This document shows, in pieces, positions 1 through 35,109 of a stretch of 63,911 nt of DNA (its first letter is position 1; every line of letters starts with the position of its first letter). Under the pieces are notes generated by a model. That model searched no databases. It was not told where the DNA came from and saw only the letters and a list, made by a program, of their open reading frames with translations. The position numbers were made by a program, and so were the translations under genes. This stretch comes from a virus. The stretch covers positions 1 to 63,911 of the IMG/VR virus record IMGVR_UViG_3300021437_000017, one strand, 5' to 3'.

Positions 1-134
1 CTGTGCATGTTCATTGACCGCAAGGAAATCAGAACAGGACCGCTCACCAATCTCACTGATGAACAACTTATTGAACTCACTGCCGCCCTCGATGCGGGAC
101 TCCCCCCCGGCGCGATTGGCGTTTTTGGCCAAAC
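1..134. repeat. Left copy of terminal direct repeat (circular overlap)
   Basis: These 134 bases recur at the right end of the window with a single mismatch (t at 122, c at 63899). A reading frame runs continuously from the right end into this copy and gives a normal small terminase. This is the mark of a circular or circularly permuted genome written out with an overlap. A genuine short terminal repeat is possible but less likely, because it would cut through a gene. Confidence 0.9.
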
Positions 135-192
135 AGGAAATCGCACGCAGGATCAAGGAAAACCGGCTGAGGTATTACCGGCCATACACTAA
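1..192 (+). CDS. terS: Terminase small subunit, C-terminal part (continues from 63349)
   Basis: This is the 3' part of the gene that begins at 63349; the frame is open from base 1 and stops at 192. Joined over the 134-bp overlap the protein is about 250 residues. The last 35 or so residues look poorly conserved because the same DNA is already coding for the large terminase in another frame. Small terminases recognise packaging sites and bring DNA to the large subunit. Confidence 0.7.
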   Translation: MCMFIDRKEIRTGPLTNLTDEQLIELTAALDAGLPPGAIGVFGQTGNRTQDQGKPAEVLPAIH

Positions 193-2572
193 GCAGCGCG
201 AGTTTCACGCTGCCGGGAAGACGTTTCGAGAACGCCTCCTGATGGCGGGGAACCAAGGACACCCCCTTTGGTTCAAGGTGATTACTCCATCTGGTCCGCG
301 CCCAATACGTGATTTACGCCCCGGCGATGAAATTTTTGCTGGCGATGGCTCGATTACACAAATAACGAGCATCATACCTCTTGGTGAACGGCAGATATAT
401 AACGTGGCATTTGATGGCGGAAACATCGTCGTCCCATGTACCGATGATCATCTCTGGATGGTCCGTTCTGCGCAACGGAAGCGTTGGTCAATAGAAAATA
501 CGCTGCAGGTTGCGGCAAGAAAGATGAAACCGCGCACCCCGGCATGTGGTGCGTTGCGATTGCCTGAACGAGACTTGCCGCTAGATCCATACTTACTTGG
601 AGTGCTACTGGGAGACGGGTCATTTTGCAATACTTACGTACAGGTTTCTAGCTTGGACGTAGAACTGTTGCGGCATATTCAAACAGTACTGCCAGATGGT
701 TGCGAACTGAAAAAACGAAAAGGAGCGCGTTCGACAGATTGGAATATTAGCACTCTATCCAAAGGTAGGGGCCGTCGCAATCCGGTGATGGAACGGCTTG
801 AGTTATTGGGGTTGCGTGGATTGAAAAGCGCGCAAAAGTATGTTCCTTTTATATATTTGATGTCGAGCGCAACACAACGCCTTGGAATATTGCGCGGATT
901 AATGGATACGGATGGCTACGCTCAAAAGCGTGGCAACAGTGTTCGCAATGTTTTTACAACCACATCAGAACAATTGGCGTCCGATGTGGCATTTCTATGC
1001 AGGTCTCTTGGTGGGCAGTCTCGCATCAACAAAAGGTCTAGACTCACATATAAGAATCCGAAAACCGGGGAACGTGCCCCGTGTTTGGATTCTTATTATG
1101 TAGCCGTGCGTTTGAACACTGAGGTGTTTGAACTCGCCAGAAAACGTAAAAAGTTCGTTAGCAATCGTAAGACAGATACGCTTGATCATATATGGGAAGA
1201 TGTTGAGCTTTGTGGCACCCACGACGCTGCGTGCATTTCTGTTGCTCATCCATCTCGACTTTATATTTGCGATGGATTCATAGTTACGCATAATTGTGGG
1301 AAAACTCTTGCTGGCGGCAACGAGCATTCGATGCACGCCACGGGAGAGTATCCGGATTGGTGGGATGGCCGGGTATTCAGCCGTCCGATCATGAGCTGGG
1401 CCGCGGGCGTCACTTCAGAGTTGACGCGCGATGGCGTGCAGCGTTTTCTCATGGGACGCTTCAATGAACTCGGAACTGGCACGATTCCGAAATGGAGAAT
1501 CCGCGACCACACCATGAAGCGCGGCGTGGCTGGAGCGGTGGATACCCTTTACGTCAGGTGGGGTGGTGGTGGTGATGTTTCGGTTGGGGATTCGACTATC
1601 CAGTTCAAAAGTTATGACCAGGGACGCGAGAAGTTCCAACAGGAATCCCTCGACGTTTTATGGTTCGACGAAGAGCCGGAATACGAGATCTACTCAGAGG
1701 GCCTGACGCGCACTAACGCCACGGGCGGTATGGTGTTCATGACTTTCACCCCGTTGCAGGGCATGACGCAGACTGTCATGCGGTTCACGAACGAGAAACG
1801 CGCAGGAACCCATGTCACACATATGACGATTGACGATGCCGACCACTTCAGCGCCGAACAGAAGCAGGTCATCATCTCAAGTTATCCGGCACACGAACAG
1901 GACGCGCGTATCAAGGGTGTGCCGATGCTTGGAAGCGGCCGCGTCTTTCCGGTCATTGAGGACTCGATTCGCATCGACCCGATTCCGTTACCGCCGCACT
2001 GGCCAAAACTTGCGGCGATGGACTTTGGATACGATCACCCGACAGCAATCGTATGGATCGCATGGGACCGCGACACGGATACGGTCTACGTTTACGACTG
2101 TTATCGCATGAGAGAGGCGCTGGTGCCGATTCACGCTGCTGTGTTGATTGGCAAAGGGCAGTGGATACCGGTGGCGTGGCCGCACGATGGCAACAACGAC
2201 ACGGCGATTGGCCCGCAATTGGCGAAGCAGTATCGCGATGCGGGCGTTAACATGCTCGATCAGCACGCGCAGTATGATGAGACAGGCGGCGGCACCGCAG
2301 AGAATACCAAGACCTCGCGGATTTCCGTAGAGGCCGGAGTTGCCGATATGCTGACAAGGATGCGCGCTTCCCGCTTCAAGGTCTTTTCCCATCTCAACGA
2401 TTGGTTCGAGGAGTTTCGCATGTATCACCGCAAAGACGGCAAGATCGTGAAGCTCGCAGATGATTTACTTTCGGCCACCCGCTATAGTGTAATGTCGCTG
2501 CGGTTCGCCGAGACTGAGGGGTCCGAAATCCATCTTTCGTCAACCCGTGAAGTGAACTGGCGCACGGTATGA
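59..2572 (+). CDS. terL: Terminase large subunit, interrupted by an intein
   Basis: This is the DNA packaging ATPase and nuclease. The N-extein ends MAGNQ and the C-extein begins CGKT, so splicing rebuilds a Walker A motif, AGNQCGKT. Walker B is LWFDEEP. A nuclease-domain aspartate lies in AAMDFGYDHPTA. Without the 346-residue intein the protein is about 490 residues, normal for the family. The start is uncertain: ATG 59 overlaps terS by 134 bp, ATG 92 by 101 bp, and neither has a clear ribosome site; an upstream TTG at 14 is less likely. The stop overlaps the portal start as ATGA. Confidence 0.92.
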   Translation: MNNLLNSLPPSMRDSPPARLAFLAKQEIARRIKENRLRYYRPYTKQREFHAAGKTFRERLLMAGNQGHPLWFKVITPSGPRPIRDLRPGDEIFAGDGSITQITSIIPLGERQIYNVAFDGGNIVVPCTDDHLWMVRSAQRKRWSIENTLQVAARKMKPRTPACGALRLPERDLPLDPYLLGVLLGDGSFCNTYVQVSSLDVELLRHIQTVLPDGCELKKRKGARSTDWNISTLSKGRGRRNPVMERLELLGLRGLKSAQKYVPFIYLMSSATQRLGILRGLMDTDGYAQKRGNSVRNVFTTTSEQLASDVAFLCRSLGGQSRINKRSRLTYKNPKTGERAPCLDSYYVAVRLNTEVFELARKRKKFVSNRKTDTLDHIWEDVELCGTHDAACISVAHPSRLYICDGFIVTHNCGKTLAGGNEHSMHATGEYPDWWDGRVFSRPIMSWAAGVTSELTRDGVQRFLMGRFNELGTGTIPKWRIRDHTMKRGVAGAVDTLYVRWGGGGDVSVGDSTIQFKSYDQGREKFQQESLDVLWFDEEPEYEIYSEGLTRTNATGGMVFMTFTPLQGMTQTVMRFTNEKRAGTHVTHMTIDDADHFSAEQKQVIISSYPAHEQDARIKGVPMLGSGRVFPVIEDSIRIDPIPLPPHWPKLAAMDFGYDHPTAIVWIAWDRDTDTVYVYDCYRMREALVPIHAAVLIGKGQWIPVAWPHDGNNDTAIGPQLAKQYRDAGVNMLDQHAQYDETGGGTAENTKTSRISVEAGVADMLTRMRASRFKVFSHLNDWFEEFRMYHRKDGKIVKLADDLLSATRYSVMSLRFAETEGSEIHLSSTREVNWRTV
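257..1294 (+). mobile_element. Class 3 intein with LAGLIDADG homing endonuclease, in the TerL Walker A
   Basis: This in-frame insert of 346 residues begins with Gly, not the Cys, Ser or Ala used by class 1 and 2 inteins, and ends VTHN before Cys+1. It has the tripartite signature of class 3 inteins: Trp67 in block B (DDHLW), Cys326 in block F (ACISV) and Thr344 in block G (VTHN). In that class the internal Cys makes the first nucleophilic attack. Two LAGLIDADG motifs lie between, LLGVLLGDGS and LRGLMDTDG, so the homing endonuclease looks intact. The insertion point is the ATP-binding loop, the most conserved part of the host protein and a typical homing site. Confidence 0.9.
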
Positions 2573-4722
2573 GCATCGCGCAGTATTCTGACGACCGGAT
2601 TCCGCAAGAACAACAGCAACTACAAAATCCACTTACGAATGGCGCGGTAAATTCGTCTACAAATGGATCTCCCAATGCTGGTCTTGCTATAGATAAGTTG
2701 GATAAATTTCTATACGAAATAAGGCTTCAGCCAATGTGGCGGCGTGAAGCTGATATAGACGCGGAATATTACGATTCGAATCAATTAAGCCACGATGTTC
2801 TCGACGACATGCAACGCCTCGGCATGGCGCCGCTCATCCGCAACCTGATTCGCCCGACAATTGATGTCGCGCTTGGGATGGAAGCCAAGACGCGAACCGA
2901 TTGGAAGGTGCAGGGCAATCGGGATGAAGATCAGGACATGGCCGATGCGATGTCGGGAAAGCTGAAGGAAGCGGAAACCGAATCGCGCGCTGACCGTGCC
3001 TGTTCGGATGCCTATGCGGGCCAGATGAAAACGGGGATTGCTTGGGTTGAAGTATCGCGAGAACTCGATCCATTCAAGTATCCCTACCATGTCGGATATG
3101 TTTCACGCCGCGAAATATTTTGGGACTGGAGAGCCAAACAGCCGGACCTGTCGGACGCTCGTTATTTGGTGCGCCGCCGTTGGCAGGACGTTGACGTTCT
3201 GGAACTGATGTTTCCTGATGACATTGATTTGATTCAGGGGCTCGGTTGGTCGAAGGCGAACTGGGATACTCCGCTCACAGACTTTCCGGCCGTCATGGGC
3301 CGGACGTGGCTCTATGAGCGCGACGTGACGATCCCCGAATCCGACTGGCGGGACTCTACCCGCAAGCGGCTTTGTCTATACGAAGTCTGGTATCGCGTGT
3401 GGCAGCGCGGTTTCGTGATTCGCACGCCAGATGGTCGCACGGTTGAGGTTGATCTTGAGAATCCTCGACATGCGCAAGCGGTTGCCTCCGGCGTGGTGGA
3501 ACCGGTGCCCGCGTTGTTTCCGAAGATGCGCCTGTCGTGGTGGATAGGCCCGCACCGCATTGCTGATATGCCGACGCCTTACAAGCATTCCGATTTCCCC
3601 TACATTCCGTTCTGGGGCTATCGGGAAGACCTGACGCAGATCCCCTACGGCCTGATTCGCTCGATGCGCTCGCCGCAGGATGAGATCAACGCGCGGCTCT
3701 CGAAGATGATGTGGTTGATGTCGGCCAAGCGCACGATCATGGACGCAACCCAGGTCACCGACATTGACGAGTACCGCCGCGAGATAGCGCGGCCAGATGC
3801 GACCATCATCCTGAACAAGAATCGCCGGTCTGAAAGTGCTGGTGGAATCTTCAAGGTTGATGACCAGATGGAGTTGTCGCAGCAACAGTTCATGGTCATG
3901 AAAGATGCAACCGAGGCTATCCAGAAAACGGCCGGAGTCTACCAGTCCATGTTGGGCGACAAGCAACCGGGAGGCGCGAATTCCGGTATCGCGATCAACA
4001 GCTTGGTCGAGCAGGGCACGACAACGCTTGCCGAGATCAACGACAACTATCGATACGCGCGTAGACTGGTCGGGCAGCATTTGATCGAACTCATCGTCGA
4101 GGACATGGGTTCGGAACCGCAGGTCGTCAATGTCAACGAGAAGTTTGGTGCCAGAAAAAAGGCTGTTGCCATCAATTCTCCGGCGACGAAAAACGGCGTG
4201 CAGATTCTCGACAACGATGTGCAAAGGGCGTTGCTCAAGGTCGCGTTGGAAGACGTGCCCAGCACTCCGACTTATCGCGCACAGCAATTCATGTTCCTGT
4301 CAGAGTTGACGAAATCCTTACCGCCGCAGATTCAGGCGTTCGTTGTTCCATTCATTCTGGAAGCGAGCGAAATGCCGCATCGTCGCGAAGTGGCCGATCA
4401 GGTCAGGAAGTCTCTCGGTATCGACAGTGGCGCGCAGGATCAGACGTTTACCAAGGATCAGGTCGCGCAGATCGTGCAGCAGAAGATCGAGGAATTCAAG
4501 CAGCAATCCGTCATCGGGCTGAAGTCGAAAGAGGTCGATATCAAGGCGGCCGGATTGAAGATTGCCGAGAAGGACGCCGAGACGCGGCGCTTAATCGCGG
4601 ACGCAACGGTCAAGGAAAAGGTGGCGAACACTGATCTCGCCGTGCTTGATACGCTACTCACGCATGACGCTGCGTTGGATCAGAATCGCGGCAAGCAAAT
4701 TGCCAATGAATTAGCGGCATGA
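2569..4722 (+). CDS. Portal protein, P22 type
   Basis: This 717-residue protein would form the dodecameric head vertex through which DNA passes. Its length matches P22-type portals (about 725), not the shorter T7 or HK97 types. The region around residues 60-190, with LIRPTIDVALGMEAKTRTDW and a downstream GIAWVEV, follows that family. The C-terminal 130 residues are rich in Lys, Glu and Gln and are likely a helical barrel. It follows terL with a 4-nt ATGA overlap and is followed by another ATGA overlap, so it is translationally coupled on both sides. Confidence 0.87.
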   Translation: MSIAQYSDDRIPQEQQQLQNPLTNGAVNSSTNGSPNAGLAIDKLDKFLYEIRLQPMWRREADIDAEYYDSNQLSHDVLDDMQRLGMAPLIRNLIRPTIDVALGMEAKTRTDWKVQGNRDEDQDMADAMSGKLKEAETESRADRACSDAYAGQMKTGIAWVEVSRELDPFKYPYHVGYVSRREIFWDWRAKQPDLSDARYLVRRRWQDVDVLELMFPDDIDLIQGLGWSKANWDTPLTDFPAVMGRTWLYERDVTIPESDWRDSTRKRLCLYEVWYRVWQRGFVIRTPDGRTVEVDLENPRHAQAVASGVVEPVPALFPKMRLSWWIGPHRIADMPTPYKHSDFPYIPFWGYREDLTQIPYGLIRSMRSPQDEINARLSKMMWLMSAKRTIMDATQVTDIDEYRREIARPDATIILNKNRRSESAGGIFKVDDQMELSQQQFMVMKDATEAIQKTAGVYQSMLGDKQPGGANSGIAINSLVEQGTTTLAEINDNYRYARRLVGQHLIELIVEDMGSEPQVVNVNEKFGARKKAVAINSPATKNGVQILDNDVQRALLKVALEDVPSTPTYRAQQFMFLSELTKSLPPQIQAFVVPFILEASEMPHRREVADQVRKSLGIDSGAQDQTFTKDQVAQIVQQKIEEFKQQSVIGLKSKEVDIKAAGLKIAEKDAETRRLIADATVKEKVANTDLAVLDTLLTHDAALDQNRGKQIANELAA

Positions 4723-5408
4723 ATGCCGTTGTTCACCGTGAAGACGGGGTGATACTGGTCGCGGCACAGGGTTACTACGATCTCAGTTTCAGCGGCAGGA
4801 TGTATTGCGGCTATTACGTCGATGAAGATTTCAAAAAATTGTTGCCGGTAGACATGACGATAACCAGTCTGAGCGCCGAGCGTTTTTGGATGCTTTACCT
4901 GTGGGCAAAACAATGCTTGGCTCTTGACGGATGTTTCATCGAGTGCGGCGTTGCAAAAGGAGGCAGCGCGAAGTTTCTGGCTGGCGCTATGCAGGGCTCC
5001 GGGAAACTGCTGCACCTGTTCGATACGTTTTGCGGAATGCCGAAAACCGACCCGGATTGGGACGTTCACCGGGCCGGAGAGTTTTCCGATACGAGCGTCA
5101 ACGAGGTCCGCGAATATGTCGGTCATTCCGACTACGTGCGGATTCACGAGGGTTTTATCCCGGACACGCTCACCGACATAGAAACTCCAATTGCATTTGC
5201 GCATGTTGACGTTGATATCAAGCAGTCAATGAAAGACTGTTGCGAGTTCATCTACCCAAGATTAACGCAAGGCGGGGTGATGGTCATAGACGATTATGGA
5301 CAGGCGACATGCCCCGGCGCTAGAAAAGCCGTTGACGATTATTTTGTTGGAAAGCGATCTGTCCCGATTTCACTTTTAACCAATCAAGCCATTGTTGTGA
5401 AGATATGA
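4719..5408 (+). CDS. TylF/MycF-family sugar O-methyltransferase
   Basis: This 229-residue SAM-dependent methyltransferase resembles the macrocin O-methyltransferase (TylF/MycF) family, which methylates sugar hydroxyls. Visible family features are FIECGVAKGGSA (SAM-binding loop), LFDTFCGMP, FAHVDVDIKQS (metal and acidic residues) and GGVMVIDDYG. It is not a virion gene, yet it sits inside the late operon between portal and capsid genes, coupled by ATGA overlaps to both neighbours. With the next gene it forms a glycan-modifying cargo pair. The exact acceptor cannot be read from sequence. Confidence 0.8.
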   Translation: MNAVVHREDGVILVAAQGYYDLSFSGRMYCGYYVDEDFKKLLPVDMTITSLSAERFWMLYLWAKQCLALDGCFIECGVAKGGSAKFLAGAMQGSGKLLHLFDTFCGMPKTDPDWDVHRAGEFSDTSVNEVREYVGHSDYVRIHEGFIPDTLTDIETPIAFAHVDVDIKQSMKDCCEFIYPRLTQGGVMVIDDYGQATCPGARKAVDDYFVGKRSVPISLLTNQAIVVKI

Positions 5409-6889
5409 CCGATTTTGCGCGCGCAGTGAAATGGGATTGCCTTCCCTACATGGTTGGCGAGGGGCTGGACATCGGGTGCGGCGACTCAAGATTCTTCGAT
5501 TGGGCGGTCGGCGTAGATATCAAGCCAGGCTCCAGCACCAAAGGCCCGAATCAACTTCGGGACGCGCGAAAACTCGAAGGCTATTTTGCCAGCGAGTCGC
5601 AGGGCTTCATTTTTTCAAGCTACCTGCTGAACGAGCTTGATGACTGGTCAGGCGTTTTGTCGTCGTGGTGGAAATTGCTCAGGCCGGACGGCTACTTGAT
5701 TTTGTTTCTTCCGGTGGTCGAAGCAAAGGAAGGCCAGAAAGAATGCGGCCCGAAACTCGTCGTCGATGCGATGCAAGGCTGCAAGCCATGGCAGTTCGTC
5801 GAGGCGCGCATCAATGGGGACGCTTTCTTTCACGTCTATCGCAAATGCGATAAACCGACTGATCTGACCGTCGTCGATCCAGACAAGATTTGCGCGGTAG
5901 TGAAGCTCGGGGCGCATGGCGACGCTTTGTGGGCGTCCAGTATTTTCCCGCACCTGAAGGAACAGGGTTATTACACGCTGCTCTATTGTCAGGAGACGAC
6001 GGAAGAAGTGTTGAGGCATGACCCGCACATCGACAGAATTATCCGGTTCGAGTCGCGCCTGCCGATGGGGGAACTCGGAGAAATGTTTGCGTGGATGGAG
6101 CGCAAGTACAAGAATTCCCGTATTCTGATCGAGTGCGTTGAAGGAACACTGCTGCCATCCCCGGCGAAGATTCAGTATCACTTCCCGAAAGAGATGCGGC
6201 ACAAGTTGATGAACTTCAACTACGTCGAGATGCACCACATGCAGGCCCAGGTCCCCATGGAGCCGCGTGTCAAATTCTACCCCAACGACGAGGAAATGGC
6301 GTGGGCGAACGAGATGAGGAATAGGTTGCAGCCATACGTGGTTGTCATCGTTCCCAATGGGTCAAGCGTGAGCAAGATGTGGCCGTATGCAGGCGACTTC
6401 GCGCGGCGTCTATTGGCGAAGCGCGAGGACGTGTCTGTCGTGATGTTGGGCGATGAGCGTGGCTGCAATTTCGACGAGCATGAACGATTCCTGAAAATCG
6501 GTCTTGCTTGGGATGTCAGAAAGGCCATGACGTTTTGCCAGTTAGCGAATGTCGTGATCGGGCAGGAAACGGGACTCCTTAACTGCGTGTCTCACGAGCC
6601 CGAAGTCCGCAAGGTCGCGTTGATGAGCCATTCTTCCCAAGAAAACTTGACTAGAGATTGGCCTAATACAGTGACACTACGAGAGTTTCCGGAGTGTGCC
6701 GGGGCGTCCGGCTGTCATCGACTTCACTACGATTGGCAGTACTGCTTCAAGGATTCTGTGACTGGCGCCGCGAAGTGTCAGGCGATGATCAGCGTGACGA
6801 AAGTCATGCGGGCAATTGAACCGGTATTTGGAGAAGTGGCGAATCTAATTCTGGACAAGGAAGACGTGCAGAAACTGCACGTCGCGTAA
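5405..6889 (+). CDS. Fusion of SAM methyltransferase and GT9 heptosyltransferase-like domain
   Basis: The protein has 494 residues in two parts. Residues 1-150 are a class I methyltransferase with LDIGCGDSRFFDWAVGVDI as SAM-binding motif. Residues 160-480 resemble glycosyltransferase family 9, the ADP-heptose:LPS heptosyltransferases: AVVKLGAHGDALWASSIFPHL at the N-terminus and IVPNGSSVSKMWPY with a later IGQETGLLN in the donor-binding half. This would transfer, and perhaps also methylate, a heptose-type sugar. The phage also encodes heptose activation enzymes on the other strand near 39000, so donor and transferase can be matched. The C-terminus has several Cys residues of unknown role. Confidence 0.75.
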   Translation: MTDFARAVKWDCLPYMVGEGLDIGCGDSRFFDWAVGVDIKPGSSTKGPNQLRDARKLEGYFASESQGFIFSSYLLNELDDWSGVLSSWWKLLRPDGYLILFLPVVEAKEGQKECGPKLVVDAMQGCKPWQFVEARINGDAFFHVYRKCDKPTDLTVVDPDKICAVVKLGAHGDALWASSIFPHLKEQGYYTLLYCQETTEEVLRHDPHIDRIIRFESRLPMGELGEMFAWMERKYKNSRILIECVEGTLLPSPAKIQYHFPKEMRHKLMNFNYVEMHHMQAQVPMEPRVKFYPNDEEMAWANEMRNRLQPYVVVIVPNGSSVSKMWPYAGDFARRLLAKREDVSVVMLGDERGCNFDEHERFLKIGLAWDVRKAMTFCQLANVVIGQETGLLNCVSHEPEVRKVALMSHSSQENLTRDWPNTVTLREFPECAGASGCHRLHYDWQYCFKDSVTGAAKCQAMISVTKVMRAIEPVFGEVANLILDKEDVQKLHVA

Positions 6890-6894
6890 TTTAG

Positions 6895-6969
6895 CGCGGA
6901 GTGGCGCAGCAGCAGCGCGGGTGGCTCATAACCATCAGGTCACGAGTGCAATTCTCGTCTCCGCAACCA
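6895..6969 (+). tRNA. Initiator-like tRNA-fMet (CAU), divergent, CCA encoded
   Basis: This folds as a full cloverleaf with anticodon CAT in loop CTCATAA, as in tRNA-fMet. Acceptor pairs 2-7 are intact, and pair 1-72 is C x A, the mismatch that defines bacterial initiators. The anticodon stem ends with two of the usual three G-C pairs (30-40 and 31-39; 29-41 is T-A). Odd points are a 7-nt D loop without G18-G19, T loop TGCAATT instead of TTCAAAT, and C11-G24 as in elongators. CCA is encoded. It lies six bases after the preceding stop codon. Confidence 0.85.
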
Positions 6970-24039: not shown

Positions 24040-27000
24040 ATGGCTGACTTTACTCCAGTGAACTGGGAGGACGTATCTCCCGGCATAGGAATTACTTCAG
24101 AACAAAAAGGCGCGATGGCGGATAAGATCCTTGCCGAACAAAATCGCGGGTCACAAATTGCCGGAGAATTGAAATCAGCAAGACCCGAGTTTACCCCGAT
24201 GGATTGGGGAAGCAGAATGCCTGGGCTTGGCCAGAAGATTGAACCATTGGTTGCTCCGAAGGAAAATAGAATCAAGGACACCGTTTCAGAACTCGGTCGC
24301 TCCATCTGGGAAGGATTGACCGTTCATACTCCCGCATCGGTTGCGGCAGCGTATCAGGGAATGGATGTTTCAGACGAAGGCATATCTGGGTTCCTGATCG
24401 ACCGTTCAAAGGCACTACAGCAGCAACGCGCTGCCGAGCCGGGTGGCGATCGTCCTTCGGCTATTCCAGGTATCAAAATGCAGGATGTGCGGGATCTCGG
24501 GCAAAACCTTGGGTTCTCGCTTACCGCGATGGGGGCCGGTCTTGCCGCCGGTATCCCGGCAAGCGTGGTTGGTTCTCTCGCTACGCCTGCGGCAGGAGCA
24601 GTTGCTGGCTACGGTGCTGGCATGGCAGCGGCCGGCAAGGTCGGTTACAACATGGATGTGAACCAAGTCACCCGCCAGTTGAAGGATGCCGCGGACGAGG
24701 AAAGCCAACGGGTAAACGGCAGGCCGCAGACCCCGGAAGAATGGCAGTCAAAACTCTCTGAAATGAAGGGGGAGATTCAGAAGCACGGTCTTTATGAGGC
24801 CATTCCTGAAGCTCTTGGGAGCGGCGCAGGGTTTGCAATCCTGACTACCGCGGCCAAGGTATTCGGAAAAGGCGTGGTTGCTCGGTTTGCTTCCAAACTT
24901 GGCGCTCTCTATGGCGAGGAAATGCTGACAGAGACCGTCACCCAAATGGGCCAGCAGAACGCCGAAACGCGCATGGGACTACACCGCGGCGAGAAAGAGC
25001 GATCATTTACCAGTCCAGAAGACTGGCTGAAATCAGCCAAAGAAGTGGCACCGCAGATATTTCTGCTGACGACATTGACGGCTGGCGCTGGCAAGGCTAT
25101 TCAAATGGCACACCAAGCTGGCCAGCCAAGCGCTCCAAACGCTCCAGAAACGCCACCACTGCCAACAGGACAACCTACTCCACCGGCAGCCGCTGCGCCT
25201 GCCGTAGCCCCACCTATGCAGCCTACTCCGGTCATATCACCTGATATGCCCGGACAGTTGGGTTCCGTTGGGCCGATACCAGAAGGCCAAGCCATTGCCG
25301 AAGGCTACTCAATTCCGAACCCGCCTGGCTACCAAATCCCGAGCATAGACTTCGCCCTGACTGGCATCGACTTAGCAAGATCTGACGCTCAAAAGCTGAA
25401 GGCCGGTCAAGACCTTCCTGCCGGCGATCCAATCCGTCTGCGTAACGCCACGCTGGTATCCGTCTATGGTGAAAATGCTGCGGTGCGGCACGTAATCGAG
25501 CAGCCAGATCGGTTCGCCGCGATTGGCGATGCGATGTTCATGGTTGCGCCGACCGTCGAGCGCGTACGCGGTGCCATTGGTGCCAAGGCCGAGGGCTTGG
25601 ACATCACGCCGGACATTCTCGGCGCGATCGACGAATTTGCCAAGATGAAGGAAAACGGTCATACCTTGGGTCAGGCGATGGCGCATTCAGTTGCCCATGA
25701 CATCAGCTACGAGGGTCAGCAACTGATGGCCTTCCTTGACGAGCACCAGAACGACCCGCAGAAAATAGCCCAGTTCATCGAAAATTATCTGCACGAGGTC
25801 GAGATGGCGTCAGGGGTGCCATCTCAAGTCCGTGGCCGCGCCTTCGACATCATCCAAGAGCGCAATGCCGCCAAGCAGAAAGAACTTGAGAAGCTCCGTG
25901 CCGAGGCCGAGGCGAAAGCTGCCCGCCAGAAAGAAAGCGAAGTCGGCCGCATGGGCAATCAAGCAGCGACCGAGGTCAAGGTCAAGCAATCAAACGAGCG
26001 CGAAAAGGCAACCTTGCAAGGTGCCGAAACCGCGCTCGCGGCAGCCTTCAAGAACGCGAAATCTCTAAAACGGAAAGGGAAGCCCAATGCAAAGCCGAGT
26101 CCCGAAGGTAATGGCGGATTACCGCCAGCAACGCCAAGCAATCCTCAAGGAGGGGCTGGACAAGGTGAACCAGTTGCGGGGCGACGCTCGGGGCCAGTAC
26201 CCCAGCCTAATCAGGCTGCTGCTCAAGTCAACGCACAACCAGTTCGTGAGACACGCAATCGGCAAGGCGCTGGCGAAAAGCCGGTAAATCGCGCAGCGGC
26301 AATTCTTGCGGAACTCAAACCATTAGACCAAGCAGCCCACGAGGCCGCGACGAGTCCTCTCAACAATGTTGCGGCTCCTACGCCAAGTCAGATTGAGGCT
26401 GGCAACTATAAGAAAGGTGCGGTTCGCGTCGGCGGTCTCGAAATCTCGATCGAGAATCCTGCCGGCTCGAAAAGACGCCCAGAGTGGCCGGCACTCAAAT
26501 CGCATTATGGTTACGTCAAAGGAGTCTTGGCCCGATCCCCAGACAAGGAACATACCGACGTTTTCGTGAAGCCCGGAACCTCGGAAGATTATAACGGTCC
26601 GGTATTCGTCGTTGATCAGAACCGCGCCAACGGGCGTTTCGACGAATCGAAGACAATGATTGGCTGGTCAACTGCCGCCGAGGCCCGCGCAGCGTATCTT
26701 GAAAACTATACCAAAGGATTCGAGTCCCGTATCCGCAGCATTACCGAATTGTCGATGGATGAATACAAAGCAAAATTGCGGGACGCGAGCGCATTTCTGA
26801 AACCACAAGCGGCCCCAAAGCGTCCCAACCGTGGTAGAGCAATGGCAGAGGAGCGCAAGAAAGCCGCGCAGGCCAAGCCAGAAAGCCACTTGTTTGCCGC
26901 CATCAAGGAGATGGGCGGAATCGCATCAAGTCTCATGCGCGATCTGACCGGAGAATCGAACGCGGTCGGCAAGAAGGGCGTTCGCAGCGATATCTTCAGG

Positions 27001-30000
27001 AGGCGCGGGGCGTTGACTAAATACGCGACTGAGGATTTGAGCGATATCGCAAGGTTGCTGAAAGACCGTGGCTACACGATAGATACGGATACCGTGGATG
27101 GCGGCGCGCAGCAAGTTCGCGACATGATTGCCGACGAGATGGCCAATCCCGGAACTCACCGTTCCGCCTTTGATGAACAGGCGGTATTCGACCAATTGAG
27201 CCGTGAACGCAAGGCCGCTGAGAAGGCAGAGGCGGAGGCTGCGACGGCCTTGGCTGGACCAGCCCCTTCTGGTTGGAATACAATGACTGAGGAGCAACAA
27301 AATGCGGAACTCGATTCCCTCTTTGGCGAACCTGCCAAAGCACCTGAAACCGCTCGCGCGCCAGTTGATCAAGGCGAAGTGGGACAAGGAAAGCCAGCCC
27401 TCGAACTCACCGGCCAGACCGCCGACGAAGCCCGCGCCGAAGCAGAGCGCGTAGCCGCAATAGACAAACGGGAAGCGGCTGACAAAGCCGCTCTTGCCGC
27501 AGAAGAAACGCGGAAGGCCAATCAGGCCGAAACTGATCGGCGCAAAGCCGAAGTCCTTGCCGAGCGCGAAGCCGCGAAGAAAGCGGAAATCGAGAAAGCT
27601 CGCGTTGAATTTGCGCTAGGTCAGGAAGCTCCGAAGCCGGTAGTTAAGAAAGTGACGACGGACGAGGCGGCCGGGCAGGGAGATTTGCTAGCGTCAGTCA
27701 AGATTGCCAGCGGAACAAACCTAGCTCCCGATCTGTCCGCTTCAGTCGAATCCGCGCTAACCGACGCCGATAAGGCCGAAGCCGCCCGCGAACTTGGTGA
27801 AAAAGAATGGTCACCGTCCGCGTCCAAGAAGTTCCTGCAAGGCTATGCCGAATGGTTGCAACAAGGCGCAAAGAATGTCGCCACCACTCTCGGCAAGCTG
27901 TTCCAGAAGGTCTACGAGGCTACGCGCAACGGGTTGCTGTCGATTGCTGTCGCCATGAATTTCAACGTGGCGCAGCCGATCATGCCGGTGATGGTCAAGC
28001 CGACTCAGCAAACGCTCACTGAAATCAGAGAGAAGCCGCGCGCTGATTTCAAGGGCGTTTCAGCTTCCGCTGACGCGCACATTACCGCTGACTGGATGGT
28101 GCGGAATGGCTTGACCAAGGGCGGTCCGTTCTTGCTGGCCGACAAGCTTAATGGTGTAATGTATGCCTTTGACGGCGACGGGGCGCTGATCGCAAAATCC
28201 CCGGCGCTGTTCGGTGCCTCGAAGGGCGATATCCTAACCGCAGAACAGGCCGCGAAGCCAATCGAACAGACGACCCAAGCCGACAAGATTACGCCGGCCG
28301 GAATATACCCGGCACAAATCAAATCCGGCGAGTACGGAAACAGCCTTTATTTCGCTGACTATGGTGCAACACAGCTTGCCGTGCATCGCGTCTACCTCGG
28401 GACCCCATCTGAGCAGCGGATGCAACGCCTGCAATCGGAAAACCCGAACGACAACCGTATATCCTACGGCTGTATCAATGCGCTGCCGGAATTTATCGAC
28501 AACGTAATCATTCCTAACTTTGCCGGCAAATCGCAGGTCGTCATCCTGCCGGATTCGACCAGCGCGGAATCATACTTCGGCATTAACGACAACGCATTCG
28601 AGACAACTACCACCACGATCACGAGCGACACGCACAGCGCAACGGCGGTATCGTGGGGTGGCGACAAGTATGCTATCCGTGACGAACGTCAAGCCGAACC
28701 TAGCAGAGCCACTACGCGCAGGCGCAAAGGCGAAATCGACAAGGGCGTGGCTAGGGAGGCAGCGGTTGGCCAAGGTGATTTGCTGGCACAACCGAAACAA
28801 GCATACAATCCAGACCAACTGGAACTCATCTATGACCACACGCCCACCAGACCCGGCACGACAGATGTTCAGCGACGGCTCGGCATTGCTGCATTACGCG
28901 GACTCTTCGGTGGTGATCGTCGAGCGGGCGCCACGTTACTTGGTTCCGCTTTATGGCGCGATTTCCAAGAACGTGCCGGCGCCGAACTCATCGGGCAACA
29001 AGCCGGAAGCGCCTCAGAGCTTGCCTTAGCTGCGCAGATCCTGCGCGACCCGCGCTTCGAGACGATGCGGGTATTCTTTGTCAAGGCGGGGCAAATCGTT
29101 GGGCATACCGGATGGACTTCGCGCCTGCCGGGTTCCGTAGCGTTTTCCATTGAAACCTCCGCGGTATCGAAACGCGTCAAGGCTGGCGAGACCGGCGTGG
29201 GAGCCAACCTTCGCAGGGCGCTCCTGAAGCACGAAATGGCACAATTAGAAGCAGACGGTTATTACGTCCTGCACAATCATCCGTCCGGACGCGCTATTCC
29301 GAGCCGTGCCGATGAGGAAATGACGATCAGACTGGCGAAAGAAATGCCGGGATTCTTGGGGCATGTGGTCATCGACCACAACGAAGCCGCGGTAATTGAC
29401 AAAAATGGAAAGAGCAACGTCGGGCGCTTCTCAGATTTAGGGTTCCCGCCTCAGACTAAAAGGATGCCAGAGGTTGCGCACGACGTTCTTGGTATGCCAA
29501 TAGTAGGCCCGTCGGGGATCGTGGCCGTTGGCAATATGCTGGAGACCAAGAAGGGCTACGCAACGCTCATAGCCACGAATGCTCAAGGTCAAGTTCAGGC
29601 ATTGGCCGAAGTCCCTGAAACCATGCTGCTCGAAGGCAAAGACCCGATGCAGCGCGGTCGCGCGCTAGTCCGCATTCGAAAGTTCATGAACGGGACCGGC
29701 AGCGCAGGCGGCGCTTTCATAGTTGCTGAGAATCCTGCGCGTTTCGATTGGCTCATCAAGAAAGGTGCCTTGACTGATGCCGTTGACACGAAGCCAGACA
29801 ATGACGGGCATCATGCTACACGCAGCCAATGGGGGGTTCTGCAGCCGCGTCATGTGACTGAATATGGACACGGATCGCGGATGGTGCTGGCAGCGAGGCA
29901 GATGGTATGGAATGAACCCGAAAGAGCCGAGCAACCCAAGCCGGGATACAATATCAACGAAGCGCGTTCCGCCGTAGCCGGAAACTCTCCAATGAATTCA

Positions 30001-32751
30001 GCGCGGCTTTTATTCGATGATCTGACGCGCTCTGACCGCGTGTTGAACAGGGTCATCAGCAAGGTCAACACGCCATTTCATATCGCAGAAACTCATCCAT
30101 CATTTGCTCCGGTCTATCAAGAGGCACAGGACTTCAACCACGACATATCGAGGGTGGCGAATGAAGCCGCTGACCTTGCCCCTGATCTGCTGCCGCGCAT
30201 CGAGAAGTTTTCTGACTTCGCAAAGAAAGCGCCATCGCAAGTGGATATTGATGCGGTTCAATCCGCGCTGAACGAAGGAACTCTGTGGGGTGGCGGCAAT
30301 CCCATGGATGGCAAGGTGTGGACGGATGATGAGTTGCGCACGGGGTCGGCGGTTACGACTTCGACGAACGGTCAATCGGTCAGGATGGCCAACGTCTTTA
30401 CGCCGCTGAACGACAGACAGATCAAGGTCTACCGGCAGGCGCTCGCTTCCGCTGCGCACACGATGGATGAGCACGCCAAGTCGCTAATCTCCCGCATAGC
30501 CAGAACGCACAAGATTACGATCGACAACGGCATGGGCCTTGCTGACGTAGCGCAAGTGGCGAGAGATAAGGCTGATGCGAAGATCGCTGGCCTTACACTC
30601 AGAATGCAGTCGATGAACGACATGGGCGAGCGCGATGAATCTCAGAAGAAAATCGACGAACTCAATGCGTTCAAGGCGTCTGTTTCAGACATCGAGAATA
30701 AGACCAATCGTCTTAATGCCCACGGTTATTTCCCTCTGATGCGTTTCGGGAAATATGCGGTCAACGTCCACCAGATGCGTCCTGACGGAACGCGGGAAGA
30801 ACTGTTCTTCGGGCGATACGAAACGCAGGAAGCTGCAAACATCGCAAGGCGAGAACTCGGAAACGAATATCCACAAGGCATCGTTACCAGCGGCATAATG
30901 AATGACGAAGCCTACAAGATTTTTCAAGGGTTAAATGTCGATGCCTTGCAGCACTTTGCCGAACACATGAAGGATGAACAAGGCAATCCGATGTCCGCCG
31001 ATCCTGTCATGCAGGCATATTTCAGGATGGCGGCAACCGAGCGCAGCGTCATGAAACGCCAGATTCATCGCAAGGGCGTGGCTGGATATTCCAAGGATTT
31101 GTCGCGCGTGTTGGCGCAGTTCACTGTTTCTACCGCTAGAAGCACGTCGAGCAATTATCACGGGGCAGAGATGCTTTCCCGCGTGCAGGATGTTAAGGGC
31201 GGTGACTTGCAAGCCTACGCAACGAGATATGTCCGTTACGTTTCCGACCCGCAGGAAGAATCCCAGATGATGCGGGGATTCCTCGCGAATTATTATATTC
31301 TCGGATCGCTTGCTTTCGGTGCAATCAACATGACGCAGCCGGTTCTCGTGACCGCACCATACCTGTCCAAGTTCACGAACTACGGAAACGGCGTCAGGCA
31401 ACTGGCCAAAGCAGCATACGATTATGCGACAGGGCGCAAGAGGCTTACCAAGGCCGAGGCGATTGCCTACGAGAAAGGCGTCAAGGAAGGCATCATCGCG
31501 CCGCAGGAAATCCATCAGATTAGGGCGGAAGGAGCCGCGTCGATGTTGGGCGACAGCCCGACGTGGAACAAACTGACGAGCGTCATGGAAAGCATGGGGA
31601 TCAAGATTCCGAGCCGCCTCGCCTTCCGCAAGGCAATGTTCCTGTGGGGTTCTATCTACAGTCTTACGGAGCAGTTCAACCGCGGGACGACATTCCTTGC
31701 CGCATACCGAATAGCCGTAGAAAAAAAGATGGATCACCCATACGAATTCGCTCGCGAGGCAGTCGAGGCAACTCAGTTCACCTACAATAAGGCAAACCGG
31801 GTTGAATTGAGCCGCGGCAACATCGGAAGTGTAATTATGACGTTTAAGCAGTTCAATATCAGCTACATTGAACTGGCGAAGCGTCTTTACGACACAGACA
31901 AGAAAGCCTTCGCGGTCATGATGCTCACGCTCATGGTTTTTGCTGGAATGCAGGGCCTCCCATTTGCCGAGGACGCGGAGGATATCATCGACACAATCGG
32001 CCAGTGGCTTGGCTACGGCACGAACAGCAAGAAGGCATTGCGGAAACTGGCAACGGAATATCTTGGCAAGGACATGGCGGAAGTGTTGCTGAATGGCACA
32101 AGCGCGATACCAGGGATGCCGCTCGACGTATCGGCCCGGATGGGGATGCACAACCTGATTCCTGGCTCGGCCATGCTCAAGGCATCCGAGCCTGATAAAA
32201 CACGGGACATCATGGAAATACTAGGGCCGGCCGCGACGCTATTCAAGAACGTCGGGACGGCCACGGAAGGACTCGCCACGGGGCGCCCGAGTGAAACCAA
32301 GGCATTGCTGCCAAGCGCGTTACAGAACCTCGCCAAAGGCGTGGATATGGTCGAGACGGGTGTCTACAGGGATTCCAAAGGCAGGAAGGTGATGGATGCC
32401 AGCGCGGCCGATGCCTTTGTGAAAATGGTCGGATTCCAGCCGGCAGAAGTGGCGCGCGAAACTCGCATCGTGGGCCAGAATCAGCAGGACATCGCCATGC
32501 AGCGTGTCATGGAAGACGCCATTGCGTCGCAGATGGCGCGAGGGTTGATGGAGCGTGACAAGGAAGCTATCGAGGAAGCCAAGCGCAAGATGATTCAATG
32601 GAACACTGACAATCCTGGCCTTAGAGTGGCAATTAATGCCGGGCAGATTGCGAGAAGGATCAGGGAAATCGGTATGTCACGCGAGCAGAGGTTTATAAAG
32701 TCCGCGCCGCGTGAGATTCGGCAAAGTGTCGGTCAGGACATCAGGCAGTGA
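24040..32751 (+). CDS. Giant polyvalent virion protein (2,903 residues)
   Basis: This looks like a co-injected polyvalent protein. Visible modules: a Gly/Ala membrane-like stretch (about 160-205); Pro-rich linker (about 365-405); inorganic pyrophosphatase-like polyvalent domain (about 787-915, with SHYGYVKG and EHTDVFV); long Ala/Glu/Lys coiled-coil region (about 1020-1250); L,D-transpeptidase-like domain (about 1420-1500, SYGCIN with upstream AVHRVY); RadC/JAB-like metalloprotease domain (about 1630-1810, HNHPSG and a downstream SRAD); and a C-terminal helical region (about 2350-2760) with a hydrophobic segment. Such proteins enter the host with the DNA and may cut peptidoglycan and host proteins. 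Confidence 0.8.
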   Translation: MADFTPVNWEDVSPGIGITSEQKGAMADKILAEQNRGSQIAGELKSARPEFTPMDWGSRMPGLGQKIEPLVAPKENRIKDTVSELGRSIWEGLTVHTPASVAAAYQGMDVSDEGISGFLIDRSKALQQQRAAEPGGDRPSAIPGIKMQDVRDLGQNLGFSLTAMGAGLAAGIPASVVGSLATPAAGAVAGYGAGMAAAGKVGYNMDVNQVTRQLKDAADEESQRVNGRPQTPEEWQSKLSEMKGEIQKHGLYEAIPEALGSGAGFAILTTAAKVFGKGVVARFASKLGALYGEEMLTETVTQMGQQNAETRMGLHRGEKERSFTSPEDWLKSAKEVAPQIFLLTTLTAGAGKAIQMAHQAGQPSAPNAPETPPLPTGQPTPPAAAAPAVAPPMQPTPVISPDMPGQLGSVGPIPEGQAIAEGYSIPNPPGYQIPSIDFALTGIDLARSDAQKLKAGQDLPAGDPIRLRNATLVSVYGENAAVRHVIEQPDRFAAIGDAMFMVAPTVERVRGAIGAKAEGLDITPDILGAIDEFAKMKENGHTLGQAMAHSVAHDISYEGQQLMAFLDEHQNDPQKIAQFIENYLHEVEMASGVPSQVRGRAFDIIQERNAAKQKELEKLRAEAEAKAARQKESEVGRMGNQAATEVKVKQSNEREKATLQGAETALAAAFKNAKSLKRKGKPNAKPSPEGNGGLPPATPSNPQGGAGQGEPVAGRRSGPVPQPNQAAAQVNAQPVRETRNRQGAGEKPVNRAAAILAELKPLDQAAHEAATSPLNNVAAPTPSQIEAGNYKKGAVRVGGLEISIENPAGSKRRPEWPALKSHYGYVKGVLARSPDKEHTDVFVKPGTSEDYNGPVFVVDQNRANGRFDESKTMIGWSTAAEARAAYLENYTKGFESRIRSITELSMDEYKAKLRDASAFLKPQAAPKRPNRGRAMAEERKKAAQAKPESHLFAAIKEMGGIASSLMRDLTGESNAVGKKGVRSDIFRRRGALTKYATEDLSDIARLLKDRGYTIDTDTVDGGAQQVRDMIADEMANPGTHRSAFDEQAVFDQLSRERKAAEKAEAEAATALAGPAPSGWNTMTEEQQNAELDSLFGEPAKAPETARAPVDQGEVGQGKPALELTGQTADEARAEAERVAAIDKREAADKAALAAEETRKANQAETDRRKAEVLAEREAAKKAEIEKARVEFALGQEAPKPVVKKVTTDEAAGQGDLLASVKIASGTNLAPDLSASVESALTDADKAEAARELGEKEWSPSASKKFLQGYAEWLQQGAKNVATTLGKLFQKVYEATRNGLLSIAVAMNFNVAQPIMPVMVKPTQQTLTEIREKPRADFKGVSASADAHITADWMVRNGLTKGGPFLLADKLNGVMYAFDGDGALIAKSPALFGASKGDILTAEQAAKPIEQTTQADKITPAGIYPAQIKSGEYGNSLYFADYGATQLAVHRVYLGTPSEQRMQRLQSENPNDNRISYGCINALPEFIDNVIIPNFAGKSQVVILPDSTSAESYFGINDNAFETTTTTITSDTHSATAVSWGGDKYAIRDERQAEPSRATTRRRKGEIDKGVAREAAVGQGDLLAQPKQAYNPDQLELIYDHTPTRPGTTDVQRRLGIAALRGLFGGDRRAGATLLGSALWRDFQERAGAELIGQQAGSASELALAAQILRDPRFETMRVFFVKAGQIVGHTGWTSRLPGSVAFSIETSAVSKRVKAGETGVGANLRRALLKHEMAQLEADGYYVLHNHPSGRAIPSRADEEMTIRLAKEMPGFLGHVVIDHNEAAVIDKNGKSNVGRFSDLGFPPQTKRMPEVAHDVLGMPIVGPSGIVAVGNMLETKKGYATLIATNAQGQVQALAEVPETMLLEGKDPMQRGRALVRIRKFMNGTGSAGGAFIVAENPARFDWLIKKGALTDAVDTKPDNDGHHATRSQWGVLQPRHVTEYGHGSRMVLAARQMVWNEPERAEQPKPGYNINEARSAVAGNSPMNSARLLFDDLTRSDRVLNRVISKVNTPFHIAETHPSFAPVYQEAQDFNHDISRVANEAADLAPDLLPRIEKFSDFAKKAPSQVDIDAVQSALNEGTLWGGGNPMDGKVWTDDELRTGSAVTTSTNGQSVRMANVFTPLNDRQIKVYRQALASAAHTMDEHAKSLISRIARTHKITIDNGMGLADVAQVARDKADAKIAGLTLRMQSMNDMGERDESQKKIDELNAFKASVSDIENKTNRLNAHGYFPLMRFGKYAVNVHQMRPDGTREELFFGRYETQEAANIARRELGNEYPQGIVTSGIMNDEAYKIFQGLNVDALQHFAEHMKDEQGNPMSADPVMQAYFRMAATERSVMKRQIHRKGVAGYSKDLSRVLAQFTVSTARSTSSNYHGAEMLSRVQDVKGGDLQAYATRYVRYVSDPQEESQMMRGFLANYYILGSLAFGAINMTQPVLVTAPYLSKFTNYGNGVRQLAKAAYDYATGRKRLTKAEAIAYEKGVKEGIIAPQEIHQIRAEGAASMLGDSPTWNKLTSVMESMGIKIPSRLAFRKAMFLWGSIYSLTEQFNRGTTFLAAYRIAVEKKMDHPYEFAREAVEATQFTYNKANRVELSRGNIGSVIMTFKQFNISYIELAKRLYDTDKKAFAVMMLTLMVFAGMQGLPFAEDAEDIIDTIGQWLGYGTNSKKALRKLATEYLGKDMAEVLLNGTSAIPGMPLDVSARMGMHNLIPGSAMLKASEPDKTRDIMEILGPAATLFKNVGTATEGLATGRPSETKALLPSALQNLAKGVDMVETGVYRDSKGRKVMDASAADAFVKMVGFQPAEVARETRIVGQNQQDIAMQRVMEDAIASQMARGLMERDKEAIEEAKRKMIQWNTDNPGLRVAINAGQIARRIREIGMSREQRFIKSAPREIRQSVGQDIRQ

Positions 32752-33080: not shown

Positions 33081-33979
33081 CAAAGTACTCCCGGTGTTAG
33101 TCCGTGTTCATGCAATACTTCCCGCGCTCTCAACCAAGCCCCGGTCTGTCCAAGCACCATCTGGATGACCGCACTCCAATCATCGGCGGGTACCCCATCA
33201 GGATGGAACTCCTGCGCAAGCGTTGCGCAGCGATCATACAGGTTGCAGAGTTGGAAGTGGTTTAACTCGGCAACCCTCAAGGCATCCTCGCCAGTTGCGG
33301 CTCTCAACTTGCCTTGAAATCCCATGTTCGTAAGGCTGGCTACCTCGCAATGAACGTGCTGCGGATTCGACACGACGTAGAATCCCTTGTCTAATGCTGC
33401 CAGCCAGCCCCAGAGAACGTCCGGCGTATGCTTGCCAGCCAGCGCAGCATACTTAGCCAAGAACTCCCTGCTGTATCCGCCAATCGTCGAGCCGTAGGCG
33501 AGCCGCATCAGGCCCTCTCCAGCCTTGATATAGCCACTCTCACGCGGATAACCAGACACGGACTGGCGGTTAGTCTCCCCCGGCTTTTCAAAAAACATCG
33601 TGCAGGCAACCGCAGAGCATGGATTGGCATCAACGGCTTCCATGCAGATCTTAACGCGATCAGGAAGGCTGTAGTCATCCGCTGACGCTTGGAATATCCA
33701 GTCGCACTCTGGCGAAGTCTGCTGCCATAGCCAGTCCATGTGCCTATTGGCCGCTTCCATGCTGAACGGAAGATCGATAGGACATTGTACGATCTTGACG
33801 GTGTGATGCGTCGGACCGAAAGAGTCAACCGTGTCGCGCATAATTTGCAAAGTCTGGTCCGTTGAACATTGATCGCTTAACACGACCTCGCATGGATATG
33901 TTTGCTCAAGAGCGCCACGGACGGAACGGGCGACATAATCCTGCTTCTGGCGGGCGTTGATTACGAAGGCGGCGCGCAT
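33080..33979 (-). CDS. Family 2-like glycosyltransferase
   Basis: This 299-residue protein opens with a GT-A fold: residues 1-45 (YVARSVRGALEQTYPCEVVL, SDQCSTDQT) bind the nucleotide part of the sugar donor, and FQASADDYSLPDR around residue 95 carries the DxD-type acidic motif. It would add the sugar made by this operon to a lipid or polysaccharide acceptor. Start and stop overlap its neighbours (TTAG/ATG and TGATG), so it is coupled. Confidence 0.75.
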   Translation of the reverse strand: MRAAFVINARQKQDYVARSVRGALEQTYPCEVVLSDQCSTDQTLQIMRDTVDSFGPTHHTVKIVQCPIDLPFSMEAANRHMDWLWQQTSPECDWIFQASADDYSLPDRVKICMEAVDANPCSAVACTMFFEKPGETNRQSVSGYPRESGYIKAGEGLMRLAYGSTIGGYSREFLAKYAALAGKHTPDVLWGWLAALDKGFYVVSNPQHVHCEVASLTNMGFQGKLRAATGEDALRVAELNHFQLCNLYDRCATLAQEFHPDGVPADDWSAVIQMVLGQTGAWLRAREVLHEHGLTPGVL

Positions 33980-35109
33980 TAGATGAACTCCACTTGCGGT
34001 GGCGTGGGAGTTGTAGGGAATGTTGCGTCACCGTTTTTGAGATCGAAAAGAAATTTGTTTGCCAAGTGTTGCAAACAATTTGGAGGGCATCTTGTTTGTG
34101 GATTGAACTGATCAGACCCGATATACCGCATGACCTCCCAATACCGCTCGCTCTTGAAGATGTCTCTGAATCTCGTGCGCATGATGTTGCCAATGTGGAA
34201 CGCCTTGTACTTCTCGTTGAAAAACGGACCACACGTAGCAATCAGGCCGTTTCCGCTCATCTGCAATATGAATGGTGGTCCATAGCAGCGAGTATATTGA
34301 CGCACAGCAGCTTTCCCGATGCGGTTCCACTTGGCTACTATGCGCGTCCTGTCATCGGTTAGTGCCTCGCACTCCTTGAAGGTATCCTCCAGCGCATCGT
34401 AGTCGGCATAGTTCACCTTGATCATGCCGTCATCGTCGGTCGCGCAGTGCTTGATTACCGCATAGTGAACGCCAAGCTCCTTCGCAAGGTGGGCGAACGG
34501 CAGCAACTGATCAGAGTCCTTCGGCTCTAATACCAAATTCATATTCACGTTGCATTCAAGCCCGCTGGAGTTGACGATATCCATCGCATCACGGATATTC
34601 TGACTCACCTTGTCGTAAATTGCTGGCTTCACTCCCATGATTTCAGAGTAGCGTTTGCGAGTCCCGGCGGAGAAATTGAAGCGCAGGTATGACACGCTAG
34701 GCAGGATGCGCTCAAGCAACGGACGTTCGAGCGCGATGCCGTTTGAGCCAAGCCCGATCTTGATGCCTAGCCTCCCTGCGTACTCGATGGAGTCTGCGTA
34801 GTAGTCAACCAGCGTAGACTCGCCGTCGCTGATAAGGCTGATCCCCTTGACGCCTATTTCGGCGGCGTCATCGAGGAACTCCCATGCCTTCTCGCGCGGA
34901 ATGTCCAGAGCGGGGGATGCCGATGCCTGGGTCTTGGCGGCGCAAAACGAGCAGGCTGCGTTGCAACGGCGCGACCACGCAATATCCATGGTGATTGGAG
35001 CCACCCTCTCGCCCCTCATCCAAGCCTCGACTCGCTCCTTGTGCCAGCCTATTTTAGTACCGTCGATAATCAGCCTTGCCGTCATCTCGTTCGCGACTTC
35101 GCTGCTCAT
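33979..35109 (-). CDS. Radical SAM enzyme
   Basis: This 376-residue protein has the cluster-binding motif CNAACSFC (CxxxCxxC, residues about 49-56), then ISDGESTLVD and GLGSNGIALE typical of the radical SAM barrel, and a C-terminal Cys-rich part (RCYGPP, ATCGPF, RCPPNC) like a SPASM or twitch domain that binds further iron-sulfur clusters. The substrate is unknown. In a sugar-modifying operon it could carry out epimerisation, dehydration or C-methyl chemistry on a nucleotide sugar; that is inference. Confidence 0.8.
   Translation of the reverse strand: MSSEVANEMTARLIIDGTKIGWHKERVEAWMRGERVAPITMDIAWSRRCNAACSFCAAKTQASASPALDIPREKAWEFLDDAAEIGVKGISLISDGESTLVDYYADSIEYAGRLGIKIGLGSNGIALERPLLERILPSVSYLRFNFSAGTRKRYSEIMGVKPAIYDKVSQNIRDAMDIVNSSGLECNVNMNLVLEPKDSDQLLPFAHLAKELGVHYAVIKHCATDDDGMIKVNYADYDALEDTFKECEALTDDRTRIVAKWNRIGKAAVRQYTRCYGPPFILQMSGNGLIATCGPFFNEKYKAFHIGNIMRTRFRDIFKSERYWEVMRYIGSDQFNPQTRCPPNCLQHLANKFLFDLKNGDATFPTTPTPPQVEFI

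Follow-up and report, generated by a model that had tools for sequence, protein, structure and literature searches.

The window, by which we mean the whole stretch of DNA analysed, is an entire virus record of 63,911 bases. An open frame of 856 codons (frame 2) extends from base 2 to a stop codon at 2570-2572 and also continues at the other end of the window; the candidate start codons are TTG at 14 and ATG at 59 and 92. This frame encodes the precursor of a large terminase subunit (TerL) interrupted by an intein, and the features of the locus are the following (intein residues are numbered from Gly1, and +1 is the first residue after the intein):

2..2572, + strand: terL precursor frame (N-extein, intein, C-extein, stop); open frame, with Terminase_6N and Terminase_6C above cut-off
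245..256, + strand: end of the N-extein, AGNQ, first half of the Walker A loop
257..1294, + strand: class 3 intein, 346 residues, Gly1 to Asn346
449..457, + strand: block B, His65-Leu66-Trp67 (among 64 class 3 inteins His65 is invariant and Trp67 at least 90% conserved)
593..619, + strand: first LAGLIDADG motif, LLGVLLGDG, residues 113-121, with Asp120
890..916, + strand: second LAGLIDADG motif, LRGLMDTDG, residues 212-220, with Asp219
1232..1234, + strand: Cys326, block F position 4 (F:4), presumed first nucleophile
1286..1294, + strand: block G, Thr344-His345-Asn346
1295..1297, + strand: +1 residue Cys, codon TGT (Val, GTT, in the intein-free locus L001)
1295..1306, + strand: start of the C-extein, CGKT, second half of the Walker A loop

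When the exteins (..LMAGNQ and CGKTLAGG..) are joined, they form the Walker A loop AGNQCGKT. Downstream of the insert, Pfam profiles identify Terminase_6N (PF03237, 2.5e-22) and Terminase_6C (PF17289, 1.4e-16), and the host protein thereby combines an ATPase domain, whose Walker A loop is complete after joining, with the RNase H-like nuclease domain of a Terminase_6-type TerL. The match to the PHROG terminase family phrog_19299 (1.2e-28, residues 91-432) spans the insert itself.

The two ends of the record, 1-134 and 63778-63911, repeat each other with 133 of 134 bases identical, indicating a terminally redundant or circular record in which terL and the preceding gene run across the join. A frame resembling a terminase small subunit (phrog_11494, 1.8e-10) occupies 63349-63911 and continues through 1-192, crossing the join and overlapping the start of terL. 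Elsewhere, the record encodes two methyltransferases, one of them TylF-type, adjoining the portal gene (4719-6889), a tRNA-Met (cat; 6895-6969), a radical SAM protein (33979-35109) and a PfkB-type kinase (39037-39852). A 2903-residue protein (24040-32751) has PHROG matches to DarB-like antirestriction proteins, to endolysin and to large families of unknown function, and the product of 56214-57092 matches phrog_7245, which is named an anti-restriction protein (8.7e-86).

The insert had been proposed in a preliminary description to be a class 3 intein carrying an endonuclease, and our analysis bears out its position, its residue numbers and its junctions: it comprises 346 codons, and residues 1, 67, 326 and 344 are Gly, Trp, Cys and Thr. 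Gly1 lies 12 residues ahead of the block A Gly, and the junctions are fixed because the alignment shows the same spacing in two inteins of related loci, L009 and L301. Assignment to class 3 is supported by the signature residues. Position 1 carries Gly rather than Cys, Ser or Thr, and the WCT triplet (Trp B:12, Cys F:4, Thr G:5) is present as Trp67, Cys326 and Thr344, accompanied by His B:10, His G:6 and Asn G:7 (His65, His345 and Asn346), in keeping with the signature defined in PMC7891396, PMC7664689 and PMC5222942. Across the 64 aligned class 3 inteins, His65, Cys326, Thr344, His345 and Asn346 are invariant, although for block F and the THN end this invariance is partly built in, because the pattern used to pick most of the compared sequences already fixes F:4 and THN. 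A search for the block F-G signature with Cys directly after it gave a single occurrence in the window and none in 100 shuffles.

The proposed endonuclease was likewise confirmed at the level of its motifs, both of which retain their acidic residue, and LAGLIDADG_3 (PF14528) is recognized inside the insert at 5.9e-11; the Hint_2 match in the same search is marginal (0.0081, below its cut-off). An AlphaFold prediction for the excised intein alone reached a pLDDT of 95.3 and a pTM of 0.93. The whole predicted intein resembles the homing endonuclease PI-SceI (Z 27.5, 334 aligned residues, rmsd 3.4). Its predicted splicing domain has the class 3 DnaB inteins of M. smegmatis (6bs8; Z 19.8, 123 aligned, rmsd 1.6) and MchDnaB-1 (6rix; Z 19.5, 127 aligned, rmsd 2.0) as its top mini-intein matches among those listed. 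Counting Z values within 1 as ties, 6bs8, 6rix and 6riy cannot be ranked against each other, and the gp41-1 and Prp8 inteins trail by no more than 2.

We then consider the insertion site in related phages. A whole-protein scan returned 576 related stretches, of which 80 were kept. The residue matching +1 in these 80 TerL loci is Leu in 55, Ile in 11, Val in 10, Gln in one and Asn in one, the two unread loci being L056, which has another intein there, and L062, which is truncated; one of the Leu loci, L009, has an intein of its own three residues downstream. The site is thus uninterrupted in nearly all 80 loci, and the insert is therefore a true insert. L001, the closest TerL among those kept, reads AGNQVGKT without interruption and is 83.6% identical over the compared C-extein (336/402), providing the kind of intein-free allele in a relative that the preliminary description had suggested looking for. 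Its GTT codon differs from the TGT of the window by two changes, and the +1 Cys may have arrived with the intein or preceded it. Another TerL of this family, at L056:3001-5349, has a class 1-looking intein (Cys1, HHN, Ser+1) at the identical site, AANQ/SGKT (the slash marks the splice junction here and below).

A separate pattern scan for GNQCGKT returned 38 stretches. Eight of them are more distant, intein-free TerL homologues (41-53% identity) with Cys at the +1 residue (L247, L248, L249, L264, L265, L268, L275 and L280); six others match the extein weakly (22-27%), and the remainder are other proteins or short frames. The existence of these intein-free TerLs makes spliced AGNQCGKT a plausible working P-loop.

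The unusual feature of the intein is its Cys+1, which the preliminary description did not mention. The second nucleophile of class 3 inteins is usually a Ser or Thr at +1. PMC5222942 gives Ser or Thr for this position and presents the Bvi IcmO intein as the only Cys+1 case then known, while PMC7891396 lists Cys, Ser or Thr. Cys+1 does not bar class 3 membership, because Ser and Thr are the usual residues, Bvi IcmO is an exception and Cys is on the published list. Printed cases beyond Bvi IcmO may exist.

To place this residue in context, we examined the +1 position in signature scans. A DNA signature with Cys+1 matched six stretches of the viral collection, which encode four different proteins, that of L085, L086 and L089 being the same; in genome_contigs the sole match, L244, lies in a 25-codon frame and was taken as chance. 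Scanning without regard to +1 gave at least 120 matches, and among the 80 listed, 78 were readable (57 Thr, 21 Ser and no Cys), each being a signature match and not necessarily a whole intein; the other two were L210, at a contig end, and L217, with a broken frame. The scan with Thr+1 also gave at least 120 matches, and as both scans reach this bound we give no total frequency of +1 residues. The signature requires Val at F:7, Pro, Tyr and a fixed spacing, and more divergent members escape it, among them L301, L306 and L333. Within the class 3 inteins that carry the signature, Cys+1 is rare, yet it is not unique to this phage, an idea that the other lineages found by the scans rule out.

Those lineages have hosts whose names are read from sequence. 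In L084 and L088 the Cys+1 lies in a terminase-like protein and not before GKT, and the protein shared by L085, L086 and L089 is a terminase-like ATPase with the junction KRG/CAKS. The class 3-type intein at L087:7416-8450 (- strand; Trp B:12, Cys F:4, THN) combines Ser1 with Cys+1 and so has three possible nucleophiles; its host is DarB-like or helicase-like. In L306 and L312, a DnaB-like helicase is interrupted just ahead of its CGKT by a class 3-type intein with Cys+1 (THNCGKT at 3927-3946, + strand, in L306).

We also assembled inteins with defined ends, dropping 27 of 161 whose N-terminus was unbounded and leaving out the window. The 134 that remained comprise 98 with Thr+1, 29 with Ser+1, six with Cys+1 and one without a +1 residue, and they provide no frequency estimate because they mix Thr-selected and Cys-selected scans. 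Class 3 inteins at GK/T or GK/S account for 112 of the 134 and use the conserved Thr or Ser of Walker A as +1. The window insertion site is three residues upstream of GK/T, where the top 80 TerLs, when intein-free, mostly have Leu, Ile or Val. The host residue there is normally not a nucleophile, and hence the +1 residue has either to be brought by the intein or to occur by chance. In this mixed sample the corresponding x/CxK position is occupied in one lineage only, that of L085, L086 and L089. The hidden Markov model used for intein scans was built from a set that included the window intein, and its score for the window therefore proves nothing alone.

The pattern THN/CGKT was found in 46 stretches, whose long open frames are mostly class 1-looking inteins at the same P-loop position of helicase-like or RecA-like hosts (names read from sequence). 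L301 and L321, which encode identical proteins, have a class 3 intein with Cys+1 at the same site of the same TerL family. Scanning with an alignment of the window and L301 brought in L333, whose sequence is SNQ/GHPLD..VTHN/SGKS, with Ser+1. All of them retain Gly1, Trp, Cys F:4, THN and both LAGLIDADG motifs. Intein identity is 53.2% between the window and L333, 51.0% between the window and L334 (the L301 contig) and 63.4% between L333 and L334, and the careful intein tree unites the three in one clade (100/100). An intein-only search of viral_contigs found one relative only, L083.

Taken together, it is very probable that a full-length class 3 intein, with splicing and endonuclease domains, is inserted between AGNQ and CGKT in the Walker A loop of a TerL of Terminase_6 type, splices by way of Cys326, Cys+1 and Asn346, and is capable of homing. 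With help from His65 and Thr344, and with Trp67 holding it in position, Cys326 would attack the Gln(-1)-Gly1 bond to form a thioester branch at block F. The acyl group would then pass to Cys+1, forming the block G branch, again a thioester. Cyclisation of Asn346 would release the intein, and an S-to-N shift would yield AGNQCGKT. The LAGLIDADG domain would cut intein-free terL near the site and so spread the intein, while packaging would depend on splicing. Class 3 inteins examined in the laboratory do splice, including one in a TerL P-loop, Baka TerL1-b (PMC5050341), and in Bvi IcmO, which has Cys+1, Cys F:4 is needed first (PMC5222942).

A direct attack of Cys+1 on the N-terminal junction, with Cys326 in an auxiliary role, would resemble class 2 inteins, which lack an N-terminal nucleophile and rely on Cys+1 (PMC4031507), and the window intein does have this residue. 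In class 2 inteins, however, F:4 is Asp, G:6 is Ser, residue 1 is Ala and +1 is Cys (PMC4031507), whereas the window has Cys F:4, His G:6 and Gly1, so that only Cys+1 agrees. In Bvi IcmO, moreover, Cys+1 could not substitute for Cys F:4 (PMC5222942), and the orthologous allele L333 keeps Cys F:4 although its +1 residue is Ser. The retention of Cys F:4 across a set whose +1 residues are Cys, Cys and Ser favours F:4 as initiator and disfavours the direct route, which we regard as highly improbable. There is similarly very little likelihood that the intein has decayed and no longer splices, TerL being supplied otherwise or the phage genome being defective. Splicing of this intein is read from sequence and structure prediction, TerL inteins tested in the laboratory include none this close to it, and its GC content is low, although the latter shows only foreign origin. 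Against decay, the frame is open throughout with all catalytic residues retained, and differences between the window and its orthologues are concentrated at codon position 3 in all three domains (near saturation). We also sought a second, intein-free terL in the 63,911-base record and saw none.

Regarding the origin of the intein, composition and trees point to a horizontal gain in the window lineage as the simpler account. The intein has 47.5% GC against 56.6% in the C-extein, and the GC3 values are 42.8 and 67.5, respectively. In the extein tree the window pairs with the intein-free L001 (100, starred), while L333 and L334 lie elsewhere among intein-free TerLs. It is unlikely, though conceivable, that the intein is instead an old resident of the TerL lineage that was lost in L001. 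The inteins of L333 and L334 do share the GC of their exteins (about 67%), as a long-standing resident would, but GC3 of the window intein is some 25 points away from that of its C-extein, a clean loss would have left Cys in L001 where Val is found, and the extein tree would demand further losses. The extein tree and the first, 64-row intein tree come from quick searches and have long branches. That first intein tree grouped the window with the GK/T TerL inteins (SH-aLRT 84, no star), and descent from them by a three-residue shift was dropped because the careful tree with L333 and L334 separated the groups.

Since both of its acyl-carrying positions bear thiols, the window intein could be redox- or metal-gated. 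The packaging motor would then be switched by its thiols, oxidation or metal turning splicing and assembly of the ATP site off and reduction turning them on, with Cys/Ser exchange at +1 as a tuning knob. We consider such a switch improbable and propose it as speculation; the DnaBi1 intein of M. smegmatis has been described as splicing in a stress-responsive manner (PMC6195587). Class 3 inteins with Cys+1 allow one to ask whether two branch points compete, a question apparently asked so far only for the mini-intein of Bvi IcmO. The alleles described here are full-length, endonuclease-bearing inteins at one site with a natural Cys/Ser difference at +1, and the intein-free alleles, in which the +1 residue is Val, Leu, Ile or Cys, are ready substrates.

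Class 3 inteins numbered 1701 in a 2020 survey (PMC7891396), and TerL is reported as the commonest intein host in mycobacteriophages, with TerL1-a and TerL1-b in the P-loop (PMC5050341). In one phage each, the Pharsalus TerL (NGK/ALDVE..PTHN/TELL), whose intein we take from its site to be TerL1-a, and the Baka TerL (NGKG/DLGHN..PTHN/SILE) have the block B Trp and Cys F:4, and are class 3 by signature. Baka TerL1-b spliced, and phage lysate cut DNA (PMC5050341). These inteins resemble that of the window in class, P-loop position and endonuclease, but their hosts are Terminase_1-type TerLs and their sites, NGK/T and NGKG/S, are not before CGKT and provide Thr+1 and Ser+1. Class 3-like inteins are also present in the annotated TerLs of Methanosarcina virus MetMV (SGK/T), Klebsiella phage YC1 and a Pseudomonas phage. 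Since class 3 inteins in TerL P-loops are already known from mycobacteriophages, the location is not notable in kind, contrary to the emphasis of the preliminary description, and the window intein is a fresh example of an established kind.

Further likenesses differ in other respects. The L009 intein shares TerL family, P-loop, class 3 signature and endonuclease, but is inserted three residues downstream at GK/T, with Glu1 and Thr+1, and belongs to another intein clade. The M. smegmatis and M. chimaera DnaB inteins (6bs8, 6rix) have the same triad, but their solved chains are without an endonuclease domain and they have Ser+1. Bvi IcmO, likened here by its description, is a class 3 intein with Cys+1 and no N-terminal nucleophile, but it is a mini-intein in a different host protein, IcmO (PMC5222942). 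The environmental viral contigs L301, L321 and L333 agree with the window in TerL family, site, GHP start, triad and endonuclease at 51-53% identity, while their exteins are only 49-54% identical to those of the window, and L333 differs by its Ser+1 (SGKS). The rare sub-feature of the window intein is Cys+1 at the x/CGKT site.
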